Both the position numbers and the translations under genes were made by a program. Under the pieces are notes generated by a model that made no database searches, was not told the origin of the DNA, and was given only the letters and a program-made list of their open reading frames with translations. A stretch of DNA of 64,000 nucleotides from an uncultured bacterium (GTDB lineage: Bacteria > Hydrogenedentota > Hydrogenedentia > Hydrogenedentales > CAILVY01): assembly GCA_937951485.1 (NCBI GenBank), contig CALEDJ010000058.1, positions 23,294 to 87,293 of the forward strand, read 5' to 3'. Positions 52,503 to 63,670 of the stretch are shown in pieces (position 1 is the stretch's first letter; each line of letters opens with the position of its first letter).

Positions 52503-52766
52503 ATTATATTCTGAGAATTGAAATCGTTATACTTTTTATGGAATATACGCTTTGTCGTGGAGTGAACGCAAGCGGCAGAGATTTCTGTAAATTTGAGCAA
52601 AGTCAGGGGTTTGCAGGAACGACCTTCGCGGCGTTCATAACGCAAGGATTGGTGATACGAATGCTTTTCCCCAGCGATTGTTTCCGCAAGTGCGGGCAAT
52701 TATCAGGCGCACGATGTAGCAGGACTGTGGACGAACTTTATGGGTGAGTCACGGAAGAGGATGGCT

Positions 52767-54269
52767 ATGGCTGTCCGCGAGGCGGCATGGAAGATTTTTT
52801 CTGTGCCGATTTATATCAAGATACTCGGCATCGGGCTATTGGTGACCCTGCTGTTCGGGGTGGTGACTTTTTACCAACTGCGTGTGGGGGTGTACCGGAC
52901 CTATTACCAGGTCTATGGGGAGACGGCCGCAAGTTTGGCGACGGCCTTGGCCTCACGCATTGAAGGCATGGTCCGCGAATCCGATATCAGCGCTATTGAC
53001 CATGAACTTGAACTTACGATGGAAGCGTTTTCAGGTGTGCGCTATGTTGTAGTCCAAGCGCCGAACGGTGCGATTCTGTCGCATGGATTTACCTTTCCCC
53101 AGGAAGCGCCGCCTGACCTGGTGCCGTCACGGGAGGACCTGTGCGCCTCCTGCCATGCCTCGCTGCAGCCCCACGAATTGCCGGTGGACCTGAAGGAGGT
53201 TTCGCATGGGCTGTCGCTGTCGCGGGGACAACTCCGCACCTACCGGCGCGATGCAGGCTTGATCCTGGAGATAACCGTTCCGATTGGCCTGGGTGATTTG
53301 GGGCATGTACGGCTCGGTGTCGGCGACCGAATGATTATCCCGGTCATCGAGACAACTACCATTTCATTATTGTGGAGTCTGGCGTTGTGCACGGTGGCGG
53401 GGCTTTCCCTTGCGCTCGTGCTTGCGTATATAATCGTCAAGCCCATTCATAACCTGGTAAATGCCACCGAACAAGTGCGCCACGGGGACTTCGGCGCGCG
53501 TGCCTGTGTATTTTCCGGGGATGAAGTGGGGCAACTGTCCGAGTCCTTCAACCAGATGACCCAGGCGCTGCGGATATACAGTGAAGAAGTCCGGATAAAA
53601 GAGGCCGCACGAGCGTCGTTGATAGGGCGGATTGTTCAAGCCCAGGAGGAAGAACGCGCGGTGATCGCCCGCGAACTGCATGACCGGCTGGGGCAATCAT
53701 TGTCAAAGACGTTGCTGACAATCGAATCCTCGTGCAGGAGTTGCCTCCACCGCAAGGACAATTGCGCGTTGATCAAGGACGATATCCGCAGCATGATTGA
53801 CGAAGTGCGGCAACTCGCATGGGATACGCGCCCGTCCATTCTCGATGACTACGGGGTGGACCAGGCCCTGCGCCGTTATGTGGAGGAGATGTCGAAGCGG
53901 GTGGATTTTCCCATTGATTACCAGTGCGTCAATCAACCCAATCTGCCGCGTATGCCGAACCGGATCGAGATCACGCTCTATCGCATTGCCCAGGAAGCCA
54001 TGACGAACATCATCCGCCACGCCCAGGCCAGCCGCGTCAGCGTCATCCTGATTCAGAATCCGGAGGAGGCGTGCCTGATTGTGGAAGACAACGGCAGGGG
54101 ATTCGAGGTAGCCGCTGTGGAAAAGAGCGCCAAGCCGCCGCTGGGCCTGATGGGTATGAAAGAGCGCGCGGCGCTGGTAGGGGCGGAGTTCGCCCTCTAT
54201 TCCCGCCTGCATGAAGGGACCACGGTCCGGGTGCGCGTGCCGCTGAATGGATCATCCTATGGCGATTAG
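52767..54269 (+). CDS. NarX-like histidine kinase with heme-c (CxxCH) sensor region
   Basis: 500 aa from ATG 52767 (GAAGAGG 6 bp upstream; ATG 52740 and 52761 are alternatives). TM1 is ILGIGLLVTLLFGVVTFYQL. The extracytoplasmic region of about 150 residues contains RYVVVQAPNGAIL, a PAS/CHASE-like strand, and LCASCHASL, a CxxCH covalent heme site. TM2 is LLWSLALCTVAGLSLALVLAYIIV, then HAMP (KPIHNLVNATEQV), HisKA_3 with the His in IARELHDRLGQSLS, and HATPase (AQEAMTNIIRHA, EDNGRGFE, PLGLMGMKERAALVGAEF). A cytoplasmic CRSC-x6-C cluster follows the phospho-His. It overlaps the NarL-like regulator. Heme suggests sensing of O2, NO or redox state. Confidence 0.93.
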   Translation: MAVREAAWKIFSVPIYIKILGIGLLVTLLFGVVTFYQLRVGVYRTYYQVYGETAASLATALASRIEGMVRESDISAIDHELELTMEAFSGVRYVVVQAPNGAILSHGFTFPQEAPPDLVPSREDLCASCHASLQPHELPVDLKEVSHGLSLSRGQLRTYRRDAGLILEITVPIGLGDLGHVRLGVGDRMIIPVIETTTISLLWSLALCTVAGLSLALVLAYIIVKPIHNLVNATEQVRHGDFGARACVFSGDEVGQLSESFNQMTQALRIYSEEVRIKEAARASLIGRIVQAQEEERAVIARELHDRLGQSLSKTLLTIESSCRSCLHRKDNCALIKDDIRSMIDEVRQLAWDTRPSILDDYGVDQALRRYVEEMSKRVDFPIDYQCVNQPNLPRMPNRIEITLYRIAQEAMTNIIRHAQASRVSVILIQNPEEACLIVEDNGRGFEVAAVEKSAKPPLGLMGMKERAALVGAEFALYSRLHEGTTVRVRVPLNGSSYGD

Positions 54270-54909
54270 CGTATTCATTGTGGACGATCACGCCGTTTTT
54301 CGCAGCGGCATCCGCGCCCTGCTGGAGAAGGAAGAGGATATCCAGGTCGCCGGGGAGTGCGGCTCCGGCTTGGACATGCTTCAGGCCATGAGCAGCGTCA
54401 AATTTGATGTCCTGCTGCTTGACCTCACGATGCCGGGGTTGCCAGGACCCAAAGTGGCCGAGGAGGCCCTGCGCCGCCGGCCCAGCCTCGCCATCGTCGT
54501 GCTGACCATGCATGAAGACGAGTACTATCTCCAGGAATTGTTCCGGATTGGGGCGCGGGGGTATGTGCTCAAAAAATCCACCGGGACAGAACTGGTTCAA
54601 GCCATCCGCGCCGTCTATCGGGGGGATAATTATATTGATCCCGCCATGGCCAAGCATGTCATCTCCCCCTACGTGGGCCGCCCCACCACCAAGACCGCCA
54701 CCCAACTGGACGTGTTGACGGCGAGGGAACAGGAAGTATGCCGACTGCTGGCCTACGGCTATACCAATGCCGAAGTCGCGGCGAAACTGTTTATTTCGGA
54801 CAGGACGGTGGAAACTCACCGCAATAACATCATGAGCAAACTGGATTTGCGAAGCCGGGCGCAACTGGTGCGATTCGCCATTGATAATGGCCTGCTGAAA
54901 ACCGACTGA
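54259..54909 (+). CDS. NarL/FixJ-family response regulator
   Basis: 216 aa from ATG 54259, overlapping the kinase gene by 11 bp (translational coupling). Receiver: SVFIVDDHAVFRSGIRALLEKE, phospho-acceptor Asp in VLLLDLTMPG, T in VVLTMHED and K in GYVLKKS. LuxR-type HTH: LTAREQEVCRLLAYGYTNAEVAAKLFISDRTVETHRNNIMSKLDL. It is the cognate output of the heme-containing kinase. Targets are unknown; the octaheme cytochrome operon 3-9 kb downstream is the obvious candidate. Confidence 0.96.
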   Translation: MAISVFIVDDHAVFRSGIRALLEKEEDIQVAGECGSGLDMLQAMSSVKFDVLLLDLTMPGLPGPKVAEEALRRRPSLAIVVLTMHEDEYYLQELFRIGARGYVLKKSTGTELVQAIRAVYRGDNYIDPAMAKHVISPYVGRPTTKTATQLDVLTAREQEVCRLLAYGYTNAEVAAKLFISDRTVETHRNNIMSKLDLRSRAQLVRFAIDNGLLKTD

Positions 54910-55473: not shown

Positions 55474-55903
55474 CAGTGTTGTCCAAAATGGGTTATTAAG
55501 AAAATGAAAGGATATGACCAAAACCCTTGGAAAATCCGGTTGAATCAAGATGATGTGGCGGGCCTTTCCTATACGTAAACCTCTCCGTGGGAATTCCTGA
55601 GACATCATTGATCCGTGTACCAAGGTGTCCCGTTTTGTTTTCCCCTCACCCCACCCCTCTCCCTTTGGGAGAGGGCGTTTACCGCGCCACCAGCGGCATG
55701 CCGTTGCCCCCTCACTCTTTGGGAGAGGGCGTTTACCGCGCCACCAGCGGCATGCCGTTGCCCCCTCACTCTTTGGGAGAGGGCGTTTACCGCGTCACCA
55801 GCGGCATGCCGTTGCTCCCTCTCCCCCCGGGAGAGGGGTGGGGTGAGGGGGAGGTCAATATATAAGGCTTTTCTCAGCGCTCAGAATATTTTGGACAGCA
55901 CTG
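55474..55903. mobile_element. MITE-like element, copy 3 (430 bp)
   Basis: The ends CAGTGTTGTCCAAAA and, inverted, CAGTGCTGTCCAAAA are identical to those of copy 1. Flanks show an imperfect duplication (GTTAAGAT at 55466, GTTAATCT at 55904). The left arm is collinear with copies 1 and 2, and the CCCTCACCCCACCCCTCTCCC palindrome frames three tandem 54-bp units. It lies between the NarL-like gene and two tRNA genes read toward it, so it could act as a bidirectional terminator. Confidence 0.88.
55664..55825. repeat. Three tandem 54-bp units inside MITE copy 3
   Basis: Each unit starts TTTGGGAGAGGGCGTTTACC and contains CGCCACCAGCGGCATGCCG. Units 1 and 2 are identical and unit 3 has a few changes, mainly at its end. 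Because 54 is a multiple of three, all frames remain open and false repeat ORFs appear in the track. Confidence 0.92.
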
Positions 55904-55930
55904 GTTAATCTATTTATCATTAATTTAGAA

Positions 55931-56180: not shown

Positions 56181-57035
56181 TTATGGCGTGGTCTTGGCCA
56201 TGGCGGCGCGCAGCGCTGCGATGCCCTTGGTGATATCACCGATGCGGTCGGCACCGGCTTCGCGCTCAAAAATGTAGTAGCCGTCGAAGTTGGCGTCGGC
56301 CAGAATGCGGACGAAAGCGTCCCAGTCCACTTCGCCTGTTCCGACCACGACTTCCTCGCCCCATTGGCCTTTGACGGTGGTGCGCCGGGCGTCTTTGACG
56401 TGGACCTGCCGCACATGCGGCGCGAGCATCCGCAGCGCCTCAATGGGGTCGTCCATGTCGTAGAGGATCATGTTGGCGGGGTCGAAATTTACCGCTACAT
56501 TGGCGGCGTCGCGCCGCTTCATTTCGTCCAGAAATGCCAGAAGGGTTTCCGCCGTTTCCTGTCCGGTCTCCAGCAGCATTTCCACGCCGTTCGCGGCGAA
56601 AATCCCGGCGAGTTGGGCCACGCGTCCGCTGAGTTTGTCGAAGGCGGGGTCCTTCGGGTCATGCGGCAGAAAGCCCGCGTGCGCGCTCACCCATTGCAGC
56701 CCCATCGCCTTGGCCAGCGCCGCAGCGTCCTGCGCCATCTTCATGTTCTCCTCCCAGTATTCGTCAAGCACCACGCCGCCGGTCCGCCGGATGGTCTCCG
56801 GCGTTGTGTAGTCCTCGCCGAGGGTCGAGAACATGCCCGAAACGATACGGATGCCCGATGCCGCCAGGATTTCCTGCACACCCTGCCATGCCCCCGGGTC
56901 ATCCCGGTGCGGCGTCAATCCCAGCTGCACGTTCTTCAATCCCAACGCCGCGACCTTCTCCGCCAGGTCCTGCGGTCCCGTCGCCAGCAATGACCAACTG
57001 CACACGCCCATCTTTTCCGCCGTCTGCGTCTTCAT
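56181..57035 (-). CDS. Sugar phosphate isomerase/epimerase (xylose isomerase-like TIM barrel)
   Basis: 284 aa. AP-endonuclease-2 type TIM barrel: VCSWSLLATGPQDLAEKVAALGLKNVQLGL at strand 1, IRIVSGMFSTLGEDY, WVSAHAGFLPHD, VEMLLETGQE with the metal-ligand Glu, VAVNFDPANMIL with Asp, HVRQVHVKDARR with His, and GTGEVDWDAFVRIL before YYIFERE. These are the usual metal-binding positions of the IolE/IolI/DTE family. AAGGGAGGTACCTCACG precedes the ATG. It probably epimerises or isomerises a (keto-)sugar; 3-keto-sugar pathways often pair this fold with Gfo/Idh/MocA enzymes, one of which lies 1.7 kb away on the other strand. Confidence 0.9.
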   Translation of the reverse strand: MKTQTAEKMGVCSWSLLATGPQDLAEKVAALGLKNVQLGLTPHRDDPGAWQGVQEILAASGIRIVSGMFSTLGEDYTTPETIRRTGGVVLDEYWEENMKMAQDAAALAKAMGLQWVSAHAGFLPHDPKDPAFDKLSGRVAQLAGIFAANGVEMLLETGQETAETLLAFLDEMKRRDAANVAVNFDPANMILYDMDDPIEALRMLAPHVRQVHVKDARRTTVKGQWGEEVVVGTGEVDWDAFVRILADANFDGYYIFEREAGADRIGDITKGIAALRAAMAKTTP

Positions 57036-57397: not shown

Positions 57398-57621
57398 GTT
57401 TTTTCACTCATGCGTTCTTATATATCTTTCGCAAGCCATGGTTCGCTGTAGTGCGTGAGCGGTGCAACGGGGAAAAAAGTCCTGTCTATAGTGTGCACCG
57501 CCCGCGCCGGCATTTCAATCAGGGCTGTGGTCGTGTTTGTGTCTATTTCGCCACATACGTTATAAGGGGATTGAATATGGCTTCCCATTTTATCGTCTGA
57601 ATGTCCTGGAGCGAGTATGCC

Positions 57622-58701
57622 ATGATGAGAAGTGCATGGGCGCATAATGGCTGTAACGTTGCCGGGGCGGGCTGTGCGCTGCTGGCGCTGTTGTTGTGCA
57701 TCACGGGCTTTGGTGCGCGGGCGGCGGAACTGCAGGAGGCGCGCCCGGGTTTCGTCACGGCGCGGCACATGGCGATGGGAACGGAGTTTGTGTTCACGCT
57801 GTTGCCACCGTCTCCGGAGATGGGGTTGGACGATGTGCGCCGGCTGGCGGAGACGGCGTTTGAAATGATAGACGGGCTGGAGCGGCGCATCAGCAATTGG
57901 ATACCGGAAAGCCATATTTCGCGCATCAATCAGTTTGCGGGGCAGCGCCCTGTGGAAACGACGCAGGAAATGATTGCTCTGCTGCAGACGTGCAGGCGCT
58001 TCCATCGTGAGTCGGGCGGCGCGTTTGATGTGACGGTGGGGCCGCTGCTGGACCTGTGGGGCTTTTATCGGAATGAGGGGGTAATACCGGACGATGCGGC
58101 CATCCAGGAGGCGCTGGTGAAGGTGGGAATGGACAAGGTGGAAATTGACGAGGAGCAGCAACTGGTGCGCTTTGCCGCGCCGGGCATGCGCATTGATTTC
58201 GGCGGGATCGGCAAGGGGTTGGCCTTGGACCGCGCGGCGTATATTCTTCGCGAGCAAGGGGTTAAATCGGCTATTTTGCATGGAGGCACCAGCACGGTGG
58301 TGGTGATTGGCGCGCCGCCGGATGGGTCCAACTGGAAAGTGCGGGTGCGTTCGCCGTATAATGAGATTAGCGAGTATCTCGATGAAGTCTTGATTCGCAA
58401 TGAATCTTTGTCCACCTCATCGGGGTCCGAGAAGTTTTTTGAGATAGAAGGCCAAAGATACTGCCATATCTTTGATCCCCACACCGGGCGTCCGGTGGAG
58501 GGGGTGTTGAGCGTGACGGCGATCGCCCCGACGGGGGTGGAGAGCGACGCGTTGAGCACGGCCTTCTTTGTGATGGGTTTGGAAAAAACAAAGGCGTATT
58601 GCAGGGCGCATCCTGAAGTCCGGGCCGTGTTCGTGGTGTCGGATGGCGATGCGCTGAAACCGGTGCGAATCAATTTCCCAGACGAAGAGGAGCGATCATG
58701 A
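57622..58701 (+). CDS. apbE: FAD:protein FMN transferase (ApbE)
   Basis: 359 aa from ATG 57622 (GGAGCGAGTATGCC upstream; ATG 57601 lacks a ribosome site). Signal peptide with hydrophobic core GCALLALLLCITGFGARA. Core motifs: HMAMGTEFVFTL, FDVTVGPLLDLWGF, IDFGGIGKGLALDRA, LHGGTSTVVVIG and HIFDPHTGRPVEGVLSVTAIAP. It links FMN to a Ser/Thr of periplasmic or membrane flavoproteins such as RnfG/NqrC, FMN-bind or extracellular electron-transfer carriers. The stop overlaps the next start (ATGA). I see no obvious DgxTGAT-like acceptor in the two downstream proteins, so its client is probably elsewhere. Confidence 0.94.
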   Translation: MMRSAWAHNGCNVAGAGCALLALLLCITGFGARAAELQEARPGFVTARHMAMGTEFVFTLLPPSPEMGLDDVRRLAETAFEMIDGLERRISNWIPESHISRINQFAGQRPVETTQEMIALLQTCRRFHRESGGAFDVTVGPLLDLWGFYRNEGVIPDDAAIQEALVKVGMDKVEIDEEQQLVRFAAPGMRIDFGGIGKGLALDRAAYILREQGVKSAILHGGTSTVVVIGAPPDGSNWKVRVRSPYNEISEYLDEVLIRNESLSTSSGSEKFFEIEGQRYCHIFDPHTGRPVEGVLSVTAIAPTGVESDALSTAFFVMGLEKTKAYCRAHPEVRAVFVVSDGDALKPVRINFPDEEERS

Positions 58702-60161
58702 GCGAGAATGTGACCCGGAGAAATTTCATGAAGACGGCTGGGATCGCCACGGGCGTGGCGATTGCGGCGGGGCGAGCGCCCTTTTCGTATGCGCAAAACG
58801 AGAAGGTGCGGGTAGGCTGCATCGGCACGGGCGGACAGGGCAGTTATCACATCCGCGATGGGCTGATGGGCGCAAAGGACATCGAGATTGTGGCGGTCTG
58901 CGATGTGTACGCGCCGCATCAGCGGCTGGGCCAGCAATTGGCCCAGTTGTCGAATGCGGGCATCGAACTACAGCCGGGCCAAGGACTCACAGACGCGCAG
59001 AAAGAGCGGGTCAGTCAGGTGCCGCGCCCCAAAGGCTATTACGACTATCGCGAGATGCTCGACAAGGAACAGATGGATGCGGTGGTCATTTCCACGCCCC
59101 TGCATACGCATTACCAGACCACCATGGATTGCCTCGATGCCGGCAAGTATGTCTTTTGTGAGAAAACACTGGGCTATACCATTGAAGAAGCCCGTAACAT
59201 GGTGAAGAAATGCCATGAAACGGGCAAGTTTCTGCAGGTCGGCCACCAGCGGCGTTACAATCCGCTCTACAACAAGGCGCTGATGCTCGCGCGTGAGGAA
59301 GGCATTATCGGGCGTATCGTGCACATAGACGCGCAATGGCACCGCAACAACGACTGGCGGCGTCCGATCAACAAAGATCACCGCTTGAATTCACAGGAGG
59401 CGCGTTTCATCAAGGACCTTGACCGTCATATGAACTGGCGCTTGTATAAGGAAACCTCGCGCGGTTTGATGACGGAATTGGCCACTCACCAACTCGACAT
59501 CGCTGCATGGTATCTGGACGCCATGCCCAAGCGGGTTTTTGGGACGGGCGGCATTGATTACTGGCGCGACGGGCGCGAAGTGGATGACAATGTGAATCTT
59601 ATTTTCGAGTTCGAGATCACGCCGGCATGCAGGGGTTATCGCGCCATCAATGCGCGCAGCAGTTATCAGGACAAAATCGCCATCAATCAGCCCTACAAAG
59701 TGCAGGTGATGTATTCCAGCATTACGGCAAACGCCAAGAAAGGCTGTACGGAACTGATACTGGGGGATGAAGGCAGTCTGGAACTGACTGAAGAAGGCGG
59801 CTATCACTTCCAGGAGCCGACCTCCAAAGTGACCTGGGCGCAGGGCGGGCAGGCCACGGCGGAACAGGCCGCCACCGTGGTCACTTCCGGCGGAACGCTG
59901 CAACTCAGCAACAAGGCCCTGCGCGGGGGCACGCCCATCGTTGTGGACAACGACAAATCCATTGACCAGTTGCAGTTCATCCGTTTCGCCAAGGATATCC
60001 GCGAAGGCGGGATGCCCAAAGCAAACCAAATGGTCGGTCTTAATGCGACGATTATGGCGCTGGCGGGTTATCAGGCCATTGAAGAGCAGCGTGTGGTCGA
60101 AATCGATCCAGCCCTTTACACCTTCGATTTCCCCACGCCTGATCCCGGCGTCGTCAGTTAA
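58698..60161 (+). CDS. Tat-exported Gfo/Idh/MocA-family oxidoreductase
   Basis: 487 aa. Twin-arginine signal TRRNFMKTAGIATGVAIAAG at residues 6-25, so the folded, cofactor-bound enzyme is exported. Rossmann motif VGCIGTGGQGSYHIRDG, then DIEIVAVCDVY, ISTPLHTHYQTTMDCLDAGKYVFCEKTLGYTIEEA (EKT in place of the usual EKP), VGHQRRYNPLYN and the catalytic-region TELATHQLDIAAWYLDAMP with the HQxD motif. Similar secreted PVC proteins probably act on sugars or glycosides with tightly bound NAD(P). It is coupled to apbE (ATGA overlap, GAGGAGCGATC ribosome site). Confidence 0.93.
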   Translation: MSENVTRRNFMKTAGIATGVAIAAGRAPFSYAQNEKVRVGCIGTGGQGSYHIRDGLMGAKDIEIVAVCDVYAPHQRLGQQLAQLSNAGIELQPGQGLTDAQKERVSQVPRPKGYYDYREMLDKEQMDAVVISTPLHTHYQTTMDCLDAGKYVFCEKTLGYTIEEARNMVKKCHETGKFLQVGHQRRYNPLYNKALMLAREEGIIGRIVHIDAQWHRNNDWRRPINKDHRLNSQEARFIKDLDRHMNWRLYKETSRGLMTELATHQLDIAAWYLDAMPKRVFGTGGIDYWRDGREVDDNVNLIFEFEITPACRGYRAINARSSYQDKIAINQPYKVQVMYSSITANAKKGCTELILGDEGSLELTEEGGYHFQEPTSKVTWAQGGQATAEQAATVVTSGGTLQLSNKALRGGTPIVVDNDKSIDQLQFIRFAKDIREGGMPKANQMVGLNATIMALAGYQAIEEQRVVEIDPALYTFDFPTPDPGVVS

Positions 60162-60179
60162 TCGGTCCGGAGCGTTTCC

Positions 60180-60211
60180 CCAGGGCGCGGGTGCGGGTCC
60201 CCGCGCCCTGG
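60180..60211 (+). promoter_or_regulatory. Strong intergenic hairpin between the Gfo/Idh/MocA and octaheme genes
   Basis: CCAGGGCGCGGG pairs with CCCGCGCCCTGG (12 bp, 8-base loop). No T-run follows, so it is more likely an mRNA-stability or partial attenuation element than a full terminator. It lies 37 bp ahead of the cytochrome gene. Confidence 0.6.
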
Positions 60212-60247
60212 TTGGCCCAACCCGTGCGGAAGGAATAAGCGAACTCC

Positions 60248-63200
60248 ATGAAAAGCCGTTTGTGTGCCGTCACCACGTTTGCCGTCGTCGGAGTTTTTCT
60301 CGCCGGATTTGCCTGCGCAGACATCGTTCCCGATCCCAAGATCGAAACATACGAAACGTTTATCGGACGGGACCTGGTGGTGGAGAAACGCGCCATCAAC
60401 GCAGGATTGCATCGGACGCTCCCGCTCTCGTGTCCGCCATTTCATCTGCGCGATGAACACGGTGACATCATCAATCCCACGGTGGATGCGAACGGCAATC
60501 CGGTGGACCCCAACCTGCCCCTGACCGAGCGGGGGATTCCACGTGCTGTCAGCACCCGGCAGACCTGCGGCGCGTGCCATGACTATGACACCGTCACCCA
60601 CGGCTACCATTTTCAGACGGGCCGTGACGAAATGTTTCCTGAAGTCGCCCCCGGTGACGGACAATCCCCCCATCGGAGTCCGGGTTTTTTCGGCAAGTGG
60701 CAATTGCTATACCAGCGCGAACTCGCCCCCAAGCATTTCGAGGATCCCGCCGATATTGACATGACCCCCTTTGAATGGGTCATCAGTTGCGGCGTATGCC
60801 ACCCCGGGGGCGGCCCGGCAGAATTTGACCGCGCTTGGCAGCGCTATGACCGCGTCATCGCCCGAGACCGGGGCATTACCATGCTCGGCGACAGCGATTA
60901 TCACGAATCCCCGTGGGACAAGAGCGGCGTCATGGAAGCCGACTGCTTCATCTGCCACCTGGAATCATACGAATATTCCATTCGCGCCCAGCAAATCAAA
61001 AAACTCAACTTCAAATGGGCCGCCACCGCCGCTGCGGGCATCGGCTACATATGGGGTTCCGTCGCCGAAGGACAGTCCCCGAAGGTCTATTACGATATGA
61101 GTCTGTTCCGTGCCGACGGCACGGTGCACATGCACATCCGCCGCCCCACCGACCGCCAGTGCATGTTCTGCCACGACATGTCCAGCGTGCAAAAACGCGG
61201 CAGCACATGGCACAGCCCCTACATGCAGGATGTGCATACCGAGCAGGGCATTCGCTGCATTGACTGTCACCACGGAGACATCCGCCACAACTTCGCCAAG
61301 GGCGCTTCCTCCAGCCAGACCGTCCGTGAAGACCTCGACAACACCGCCCTCTCCTGCGCGGAATGCCATGAACGCCAGGAACGCGGCGCACCCAATTACC
61401 CGCACCCTGGATTGCCGCCGCTGCACCTGGAGCGCATCAGTTGCGAAGCGTGCCACATCACCCGCCGGCCCTTCGTGCCCACCGCCGTGGTGGACACCAC
61501 CACCGGCAAAGCCATTCAACTTCCCGAACAAATCGATCCCAAGGCGTTCGATTCCCACCTCTTCGGCGCAAACTGGGGGCGCGTTGTCGCCTATGACCCA
61601 AAGAATATTCTTTACCCCTACACCGCCGCCGAACTCGACGCCGCCGCGAATCTCATCGTCCCGCCGGGCGACGCGTTGCGAGAGTATTTCGGCAATGCCG
61701 ACGGCACGTCCAGACTGCCCCAGGGCCCGTTCCGGGTCCGCGATTTCATCGAAACGCGCGGCGGCATGGAATCCGAAGACGCGATCAGCCTGATGCTCTT
61801 CGCGCTTGAGGCCACGGCCCCGCACCGCGAAAACATGTTCCCCGTCGGGGTATTCCGTGGGCAGGCATGGAAACTCGAAGATGGCTGGGTCAAAGAAATC
61901 CCCGCCACGCTCCAGCCCAAGCGTCCCGGCGCCACCATCGCCGAAACCCCCTTTATCTTCGCTCGCAACAAAGGCGACGGCATCATTTATCCCGAAGGTC
62001 AGCAACTCGGCGCGTTCTGGGCCTATCTCGAAGGCCCCGTGGCGCGGCCTGTCTTTCTGCATGACATGGACGCCGCGTGGCAGTTCCTGACCTCCGAAGA
62101 ATACCGCTTCTATCAATATCCGGATCAACCCGCCGCCGGCGGCGTTTCCCCCGGTTTGCCCCGCGAAGGGGAATCCGGCGAACAGGAAGCCGGGGAACAG
62201 GAGAGCGCCCAAGCCGCTCCCGCAGAACCTGCCGAAGAAGCCAAGACCGAAGAAGACCCCCGCGCGGCGCGCGAAGCGGCCCAAGCCGCCGCGCGCAAAC
62301 TGCAAGAAGCGGTTCAGGCGAAACTCGCGCCTTACGGCGCCGCCGACAGACGCCGCATCGCCATCTACGACGACAACAACGACAGTTTTCCCGAAATCAA
62401 CACAGAGGCGGAAATGGCCGTCATGGCCTGGGCGATAAGCGAAGCCGCGCCGCGCTTCAAAGGGCGCGACCTCTACTACATCAAAGGCGTTAATGCCTGG
62501 CGCGTCCGCGTCGAGGATTGGGAAAACCCCTACGATGCCGACTATCTCCAGATGGACCGCATTGGAGAGAACGAAGCCTTTATCGCCGCCGAACGTTATG
62601 AACAGGCAGAAACCCCCAGCGCGTTCAGTTGGGACCCGCCGGTCATGGAATGGAAACTGGCCGAAACCCGGCTCGTGCGCCCCTGCAAAGCCGCCGTCGA
62701 AGAGGTGGACGCTGCCCTCAGCCCCGCCATCGCCGAACTCGCCCGGCGCCTGCCCTGGACCGTTTCCCACGGCGTCGAACCCGCCGCATCCGCGCTCGGT
62801 GCCAAAGGCTGCGCCGACTGCCACAGCGCAGATTCCCATTTCTTCTTCGGCCCCGTCGTCATTGACCCCTTCGGTGCCGACGCCAAGCCCGTCACTGTGC
62901 CCATGTACGAACTCCTGGGCTATGACCCGCTCGCCATTCGCATCGGCGCATTCCGAGAGCAAATACTCAAGCCCGTTTCTCCCTGGATTGTGCTCGCAGT
63001 GCTGCTGATCATGCTGCTCCACTTCGCGCTGTTCGGACGCAAAAACGGCGTCGCCTATCCCGAACTCAACGTGATCCGCTTCCGCGCCCACGAACGCCTC
63101 GGCCACCTCATCGCCATGACCACCGTCGTCGTGCTCGCCGTCACCGGGTTCTTCTTCCTGCTCGGCCGCCACGACCCCCTCGGACCTTGGGCGCGCATCG

Positions 63201-63670
63201 TCCACACCTACGTCGGCTACGCCTCCATCGTCGGCATCACCGCCATCTTCCTGTCATGGGTGTGCACGATGCTGCCCGCCAGGGGCGACCTCCGGTGGCT
63301 CCTCAAGGCCGGCGGATATCTCGGCGGCGTCAAAGAACACCTCCCCGCCGGAAAATTCAACGCCGGCCAGAAAATTCTTTTCTGGATCGCCATCGCCGCA
63401 TGCGGCGTCCTCGCCGCATCAGGCGTCCTGATGGGGCTCAACCGTGGCGCGCACTTCCCCCGCCAGGAACTTGTTTACACCGCGCACGACATCGCCGCAC
63501 TCATCATGATCCTCGTGCTCATGGCCCACGTATACCTCGCGACCATCGTCGTCCCCCACAGCCTCAACAGCCTCTTCGGCGGCAAAGTCAGCAGCAAATG
63601 GGCCGATGCGCACCACGCCAACTGGCAATACCCGGGAAAAACCGCCGATACACCACACGTCAAACACTAG
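60248..63670 (+). CDS. Octaheme cytochrome c fused to a C-terminal FdhI/cytochrome b561-like membrane domain
   Basis: 1140 aa. Signal peptide MKSRLCAVTTFAVVGVFLAGFACA. Seven CxxCH heme-c sites lie at about residues 107, 181, 233, 305, 337, 370 and 399 (CGACH, CGVCH, CFICH, CMFCH, CIDCH, CAECH, CEACH); an eighth, CADCH, lies near 855. An Ala/Glu-rich linker spans about 630-690. The C-terminal 230 residues carry a lead helix (PWIVLAVLLIMLLHFALFG) and a four-helix cytochrome b domain like formate dehydrogenase gamma: FRAHERLGHLIAMTTVVVLAVTGFFFL with a heme b His, HTYVGYASIVG, ASGVLMGLNRG and VYTAHDIAALIMILVLMAHVYLATI. It could carry electrons between the quinone pool and periplasmic hemes. The substrate is unknown. 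Confidence 0.9.
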   Translation: MKSRLCAVTTFAVVGVFLAGFACADIVPDPKIETYETFIGRDLVVEKRAINAGLHRTLPLSCPPFHLRDEHGDIINPTVDANGNPVDPNLPLTERGIPRAVSTRQTCGACHDYDTVTHGYHFQTGRDEMFPEVAPGDGQSPHRSPGFFGKWQLLYQRELAPKHFEDPADIDMTPFEWVISCGVCHPGGGPAEFDRAWQRYDRVIARDRGITMLGDSDYHESPWDKSGVMEADCFICHLESYEYSIRAQQIKKLNFKWAATAAAGIGYIWGSVAEGQSPKVYYDMSLFRADGTVHMHIRRPTDRQCMFCHDMSSVQKRGSTWHSPYMQDVHTEQGIRCIDCHHGDIRHNFAKGASSSQTVREDLDNTALSCAECHERQERGAPNYPHPGLPPLHLERISCEACHITRRPFVPTAVVDTTTGKAIQLPEQIDPKAFDSHLFGANWGRVVAYDPKNILYPYTAAELDAAANLIVPPGDALREYFGNADGTSRLPQGPFRVRDFIETRGGMESEDAISLMLFALEATAPHRENMFPVGVFRGQAWKLEDGWVKEIPATLQPKRPGATIAETPFIFARNKGDGIIYPEGQQLGAFWAYLEGPVARPVFLHDMDAAWQFLTSEEYRFYQYPDQPAAGGVSPGLPREGESGEQEAGEQESAQAAPAEPAEEAKTEEDPRAAREAAQAAARKLQEAVQAKLAPYGAADRRRIAIYDDNNDSFPEINTEAEMAVMAWAISEAAPRFKGRDLYYIKGVNAWRVRVEDWENPYDADYLQMDRIGENEAFIAAERYEQAETPSAFSWDPPVMEWKLAETRLVRPCKAAVEEVDAALSPAIAELARRLPWTVSHGVEPAASALGAKGCADCHSADSHFFFGPVVIDPFGADAKPVTVPMYELLGYDPLAIRIGAFREQILKPVSPWIVLAVLLIMLLHFALFGRKNGVAYPELNVIRFRAHERLGHLIAMTTVVVLAVTGFFFLLGRHDPLGPWARIVHTYVGYASIVGITAIFLSWVCTMLPARGDLRWLLKAGGYLGGVKEHLPAGKFNAGQKILFWIAIAACGVLAASGVLMGLNRGAHFPRQELVYTAHDIAALIMILVLMAHVYLATIVVPHSLNSLFGGKVSSKWADAHHANWQYPGKTADTPHVKH

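Follow-up and report, generated by a model that had tools for sequence, protein, structure and literature searches.

A Hydrogenedentota sensor histidine kinase with a predicted, seemingly independently acquired heme-c loop in its Cache domain

The window, i.e. the entire 64,000-nucleotide stretch of Hydrogenedentota DNA analyzed here, codes for a sensor histidine kinase of 509 aa (52740..54269; this and all further features lie on the forward strand unless stated otherwise), the extracytoplasmic Cache domain of which bears a CxxCH heme-c attachment motif. The best overall explanation, to which we assign a probability of about two in three, is that this is a Cache kinase with an independently acquired heme-c loop, which likely regulates multiheme respiratory genes. 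Heme-motif Cache kinases of this type have so far been seen only in Hydrogenedentota, and it seems that a heme sensor of the Cache type was invented here a second time, separately. The kinase would place a heme-c insertion in another Cache family and at another position of the fold, and its sister kinases retain the domain in a form lacking the insert. Should heme binding hold true, the insertion of heme into Cache scaffolds would be a repeatable evolutionary route, for which this set of kinases offers a clean before-and-after comparison. The kinase and its regulator are also a testable candidate regulator of multiheme respiration in an uncultured phylum.

The kinase shows the domain order TM1, Cache with CxxCH, TM2, HAMP, HisKA_3 and HATPase_c. 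Its ORF begins at 52740, which is a candidate start only; 52767, where an earlier note on this DNA had begun the kinase, is the third in-frame ATG (Met10). Hydropathy analysis places TM1 at about residues 28-47 (52821..52880), preceded by an N-terminus rich in Lys/Arg, and TM2 at about residues 206-233 (53355..53438), the two framing a single Cache domain, probably of the sCache_3_2 type (about residues 48-205; 52881..53354). This arrangement puts the motif, of the form CASCH, outside the cytoplasm as had been supposed, and a cysteine cluster in the kinase part inside it. Pfam profiles detect HAMP (PF00672; residues 228-278; 53421..53573), the HisKA_3 phosphotransfer/dimerization domain (PF07730; residues 305-366; 53652..53837) and HATPase_c (PF02518; residues 410-503; 53967..54248); together with the phospho-acceptor His314 (53679-53681), which is invariant across the aligned orthologs, these mark a HisKA_3 histidine kinase. 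The gene of the response regulator (54247..54909) overlaps the 3' end of the kinase gene by 23 nt, and its product combines a receiver (Response_reg) with a GerE HTH (both by Pfam), the NarL/FixJ (NarL/LuxR) type. The initial description of the two as a NarX/NarL-like pair thus fits the output half, since NarX/NarL and NarQ/NarP likewise combine a core of HAMP, HisKA_3 and HATPase_c with a LuxR-type regulator, but not the input half: NarX and NarQ sense through a nitrate-binding helical bundle, whereas the window kinase has a Cache domain and no nitrate-sensor match. We accordingly rejected a NarX/NarQ identity of the sensor, the NCBIfam scores of 103-108 bits (against cut-offs of 553-578) stemming from the kinase core only; the P-box motif, as quoted in PMC8199190, was not seen by eye in the window kinase sequence.

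The CASCH motif (residues 135-139; 53142..53156) is not a chance occurrence, because only 0.0037 CxxCH are expected in the window kinase from its composition and because C135, C138 and H139 are unchanged in all 13 aligned Hydrogenedentota orthologs. Orthologs from this phylum are 41-71% identical to the window kinase, and a fourteenth (L024) has the motif as well. The x residues vary among the members, with C-x-x-C-H itself exact in every one. Thus, the earlier note's covalent-heme motif in an extracytoplasmic sensor is borne out: it had offered a lack of conservation in orthologs as grounds for giving the idea up, and all 14 full-length orthologs found retain the motif. Full-length matches to a profile of the heme-motif sensor were recovered in 14 of 68 Hydrogenedentota genomes, as a single copy in each. 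Among the matches listed for about 1180 sampled genomes of three other phyla (taken as the Planctomycetota, Desulfobacterota and Acidobacteriota of the loci), with up to nine candidates scored per genome and rare members possibly missed, none was a full-length match with CxxCH; the motif, along with the 24-residue insertion described below, was also absent from all 30 inspected homologous sensors outside Hydrogenedentota. The suggestion that such a motif is rare in histidine kinases has to be qualified: the window kinase does fall outside DUF3365/Tll0287, but that heme-c Cache family is large and includes kinases (PMC12889525).

As modeled by AF2 (mean pLDDT 78, pTM 0.70), the sensor has the topology of a single Cache domain with the CxxCH between strands 2 and 3, and Foldseek recovered the sensor domains of CitA, WalK and PctA among its top PDB matches. 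The inserted loop is of low confidence in this model (pLDDT about 42-57), which therefore does not reveal how the heme would be held or by which distal ligand. The same architecture is found in sister kinases from Acidobacteria, Planctomycetota and FCPU426, but these lack exactly the CxxCH segment; the profile-profile alignment of the heme set with the sisters spans the whole domain (99.9%, E 2.4e-31) and is broken by a single 24-residue gap where the motif lies. Given that Cache domains are generally without it, this segment of about 24 residues (53145..53216, with alignment-dependent boundaries) is most simply understood as an insertion. Of nine sister domains, eight are recognized by the sCache_3_2 model (PF17203; best E 5.9e-12), with L031 scoring 31.7 bits against the cut-off of 28.4; the window sensor reaches 16.5 bits with this model, a sub-threshold hit that is the sole Pfam match in the sensor region. 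Sensors of the sCache_3_2 family, e.g. CitA, have the same fold and strand order and differ from the window kinase in lacking the 24-residue CxxCH insertion. From these sequence comparisons we infer that the window sensor is an sCache_3_2-type Cache with an independently acquired heme-c motif, apart from DUF3365/Tll0287. In the phylogenetic trees the rows with the heme motif require three changes, but a single clade is not rejected (p-AU 0.127); a single gain followed by losses would be compatible with the trees. L014, the sensor of which lies beyond the contig end, was excluded from the second tree.

The cytoplasmic cysteines form the cluster C332-x2-C335-x6-C342 (CRSC-x6-C; 53733..53765), which lies 18-28 residues past His314. 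The kinase part as modeled (pLDDT 84.6) has them at the end of helix 1, in the turn and at the start of helix 2, i.e. the tip of the HisKA_3 hairpin, and the earlier note was therefore right to place such a cluster after the phospho-accepting helix. At least three hairpin cysteines occur in 10 of 14 heme-motif kinases (nine with the exact CxxCx6C) and fewer than three in the other four, all of which keep the CxxCH; at least two are found in eight of 14 sister rows, counting L014 with its unseen sensor, and in two of 24 distant HisKA_3 kinases. Being missing in four of the heme-motif kinases and present in several kinases without the motif, the cluster is optional and separable. It is characteristic of the subfamily, being conserved where the surrounding residues vary, and is independent of the heme motif. 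Of the proposal of two redox inputs, what stands is the placement, with a heme motif outside and a Cys cluster inside; a single coupled device is unsupported, as the two vary independently.

These observations can be arranged into a tentative mechanism. A single Cache domain would have gained a cytochrome-like CxxCH loop of about 24 residues, independently of DUF3365/Tll0287, and the loop would be joined to heme c by the CcsA-type system of the cell, genes for which are present in the window genome. A change in the redox state or ligation of the heme, possibly by exchange of a distal ligand, could then alter the conformation of the Cache domain, and this signal would reach the phosphotransfer helices by way of TM2 and HAMP, with the phosphate going on to the overlapping LuxR-type regulator, as the domain order suggests. 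The best candidate for the distal ligand is His115 (53082..53084), which is invariant across the heme-motif set. We rejected it as a heme-specific residue and retain it as a ligand candidate only, since the equivalent histidine (in AHTF/SHTF) is found in many motif-less homologs; this commonness in non-heme homologs implies that it predates the insertion. In most orthologs, the three-Cys cluster at the hairpin tip may provide a further gate on the cytoplasmic side, based on a metal or on thiols. The predicted heme kinase probably reports the redox state or a small gas, with cytochrome genes being adjusted in response. A more far-reaching version, which we hold to be rather improbable, is that a heme-c Cache sensor of independent origin, connected to multihemes, compares the two sides of the membrane, its heme reading the redox state of the periplasmic cytochrome pool and its Cys cluster the cytoplasmic redox or metal state, before multiheme respiratory genes are switched.

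The known heme-bearing Cache domains provide the closest precedent and the basis for a rival reading of the origin. In a 2026 preprint, DUF3365/Tll0287 proteins are described as Cache domains with CxxCH that constitute one family, arisen via insertion of a cytochrome fragment, with NO binding reported for a signaling-fused (HAMP-linked) member (PMC12889525). These sCache_heme domains (GSU0582, GSU0935, Tll0287; PMC12889525, PMC8396549) resemble the window sensor in being extracytoplasmic Cache domains with one CxxCH and often a HAMP and a kinase or chemoreceptor output, and are likewise explained by a cytochrome fragment put into a Cache scaffold. Hence, the window sensor might be a highly divergent DUF3365/Tll0287 member, sensing NO like the signaling-fused members, with no independent acquisition involved; the shared fold, single motif and HAMP-coupled kinase would suit this, as would the occurrence of true DUF3365 proteins in 15 of 60 related genomes. 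However, the very PF11845 profile that detects the latter matches none of 12 heme-set members, the window kinase included, and in a profile comparison with 13 DUF3365 domains only 11 columns around the CxxCH align (probability 15.6%). In DUF3365, as read from sequence rather than structure, the CxxCH follows the RYFRP strand just before the last strand, whereas the window-type motif lies two strands earlier, between strands 2 and 3. The window kinase further lacks the conserved Met/Cys ligand of sCache_heme, and the kinases most closely related to it, of the sCache_3_2 type and devoid of the motif, can be aligned with it end to end; four genomes (G001, G002, G003 and G033) encode DUF3365 proteins and the heme-motif kinase as separate genes. 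The lack of a PF11845 match, the likeness limited to the CxxCH and the different insertion site led us to reject membership in DUF3365/Tll0287 and argue for an independent acquisition, leaving common descent with that family improbable.

With an independently acquired heme-c loop as the preferred reading, what it senses, and whether the heme is the input at all, can be weighed against three alternatives. It is possible, though we consider it the lesser option, that the signal is not redox potential but a gas (NO, CO or O2), met by the kinase at a five-coordinate or labile heme: there is no conserved Met/Cys distal ligand of the kind seen in GSU0935 (Met60) and Tll0287 (Cys), and the NO-binding heme-Cache domain is itself HAMP-linked, but the invariant His115 could fill the distal position, and the neighboring genes recognized so far belong to electron transfer. 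Extracytoplasmic sensing of redox or oxygen through heme c has a further parallel in DcrA of Desulfovibrio vulgaris (PMC8396549), which is a chemoreceptor where the window protein is a kinase. That the cysteines of the CxxCH instead form a disulfide or a metal site with no heme is quite unlikely; short Cys motifs can bind metals and the attachment of heme is itself an inference, but C-x-x-C-H is exact in all members around its variable residues and lies in an extracytoplasmic domain, the insertion weakly resembles multiheme cytochrome repeats (Paired_CXXCH_1 is matched by five of 12 heme-set members, best E 0.018), and Hydrogenedentota genomes are rich in multiheme cytochromes and c-type maturation genes. 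The Cys cluster might alternatively be the main redox input, merely tuned by the heme domain. It lies in the phosphotransfer domain, at the hairpin, and is found also without the heme motif, and redox-active cytosolic cysteines are known in the transmitter parts of other histidine kinases, namely RegB (of RegB/RegA; Cys265, PMC9147068) and SrrB (a pair in the catalytic domain, PMC8199190), differing from the three at the HisKA_3 hairpin seen here. The absence of the full cluster from four heme-motif orthologs that all keep their CxxCH makes this improbable.

The genomic neighborhoods favor a link to multiheme respiration. A multiheme ORF (at least 3 CxxCH) lies within 6 kb of nine of 14 heme-motif kinases, five of 11 non-heme sisters and one of 24 distant HisKA_3 kinases, with several of the contigs ending early. 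Given how often such genes adjoin the pair in relatives, respiratory genes for multiheme cytochromes are most likely part of the regulon. Since the non-heme sisters too are often near multiheme genes, linkage alone is silent on the contribution of the heme; it says 'cytochrome biology' and not a particular promoter. A homologous c554-like tetraheme adjoins six heme-motif loci. In a related genome (L139, 10396-13510) a c554-like tetraheme comes soon after the kinase, along with an OmcA/MtrC decaheme, and in L026 HmcB/HmcC-like (Fe-S/NrfD), multiheme, c554-like and ResB genes follow, with similar genes in L023 and L038. The window genome carries c554-like, OmcA/MtrC-like, NrfH-like and CcsA genes together on contig C7, away from the window pair. 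The stretch read there (L140:527-9561) comprises an OmcA/MtrC decaheme, an NrfH-like multiheme, a ResB/CcsA fusion and a c554-like tetraheme, with no heme-motif sensor kinase beside the cluster.

In the window itself, the candidate targets are the genes of an ApbE-type FAD:protein FMN transferase (57601..58701) and of a fusion protein (60248..63670) that joins an octaheme cytochrome with a membrane domain of the cytochrome b561/formate dehydrogenase gamma-like type; they start 2.7 kb and 5.3 kb past the regulator, respectively. The earlier note had pointed to the octaheme operon as a target: it does not directly follow the pair and has no NarL site, but multiheme genes are frequent neighbors in relatives. 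Its direct control is unproven because it lies 2.7 kb away behind a gene on the opposite strand (56181-57035, reverse strand). Unlike in NarX/NarL, NarL sites are absent near the candidate targets of the window; upstream of candidate targets across the loci we found two NarL heptamers, both in L025, and no dyad common to more than two loci, a number also reached by shuffles, and neither was accepted as a shared regulator-binding motif. The octaheme protein had no BLAST match at 1e-6 among the multiheme neighbors of other loci. The ApbE-type gene opens a compact cluster (57601-63670) that comprises, besides the octaheme-b561 fusion, a Gfo/Idh-type oxidoreductase bearing a Tat-like signal. In L025 (5731-7689) the divergent neighbor of the heme-motif kinase is an 11-heme cytochrome that carries a fused cytochrome b561-type domain; its layout is of the kind seen in the octaheme protein of the window, without BLAST similarity to it. 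Positions 55587-55908 of the window, in the gap separating the regulator from the following gene, hold a short repeated stretch (reading PLTLWERAFTAPPAACRC in one frame), which looks like a dispersed intergenic repeat.
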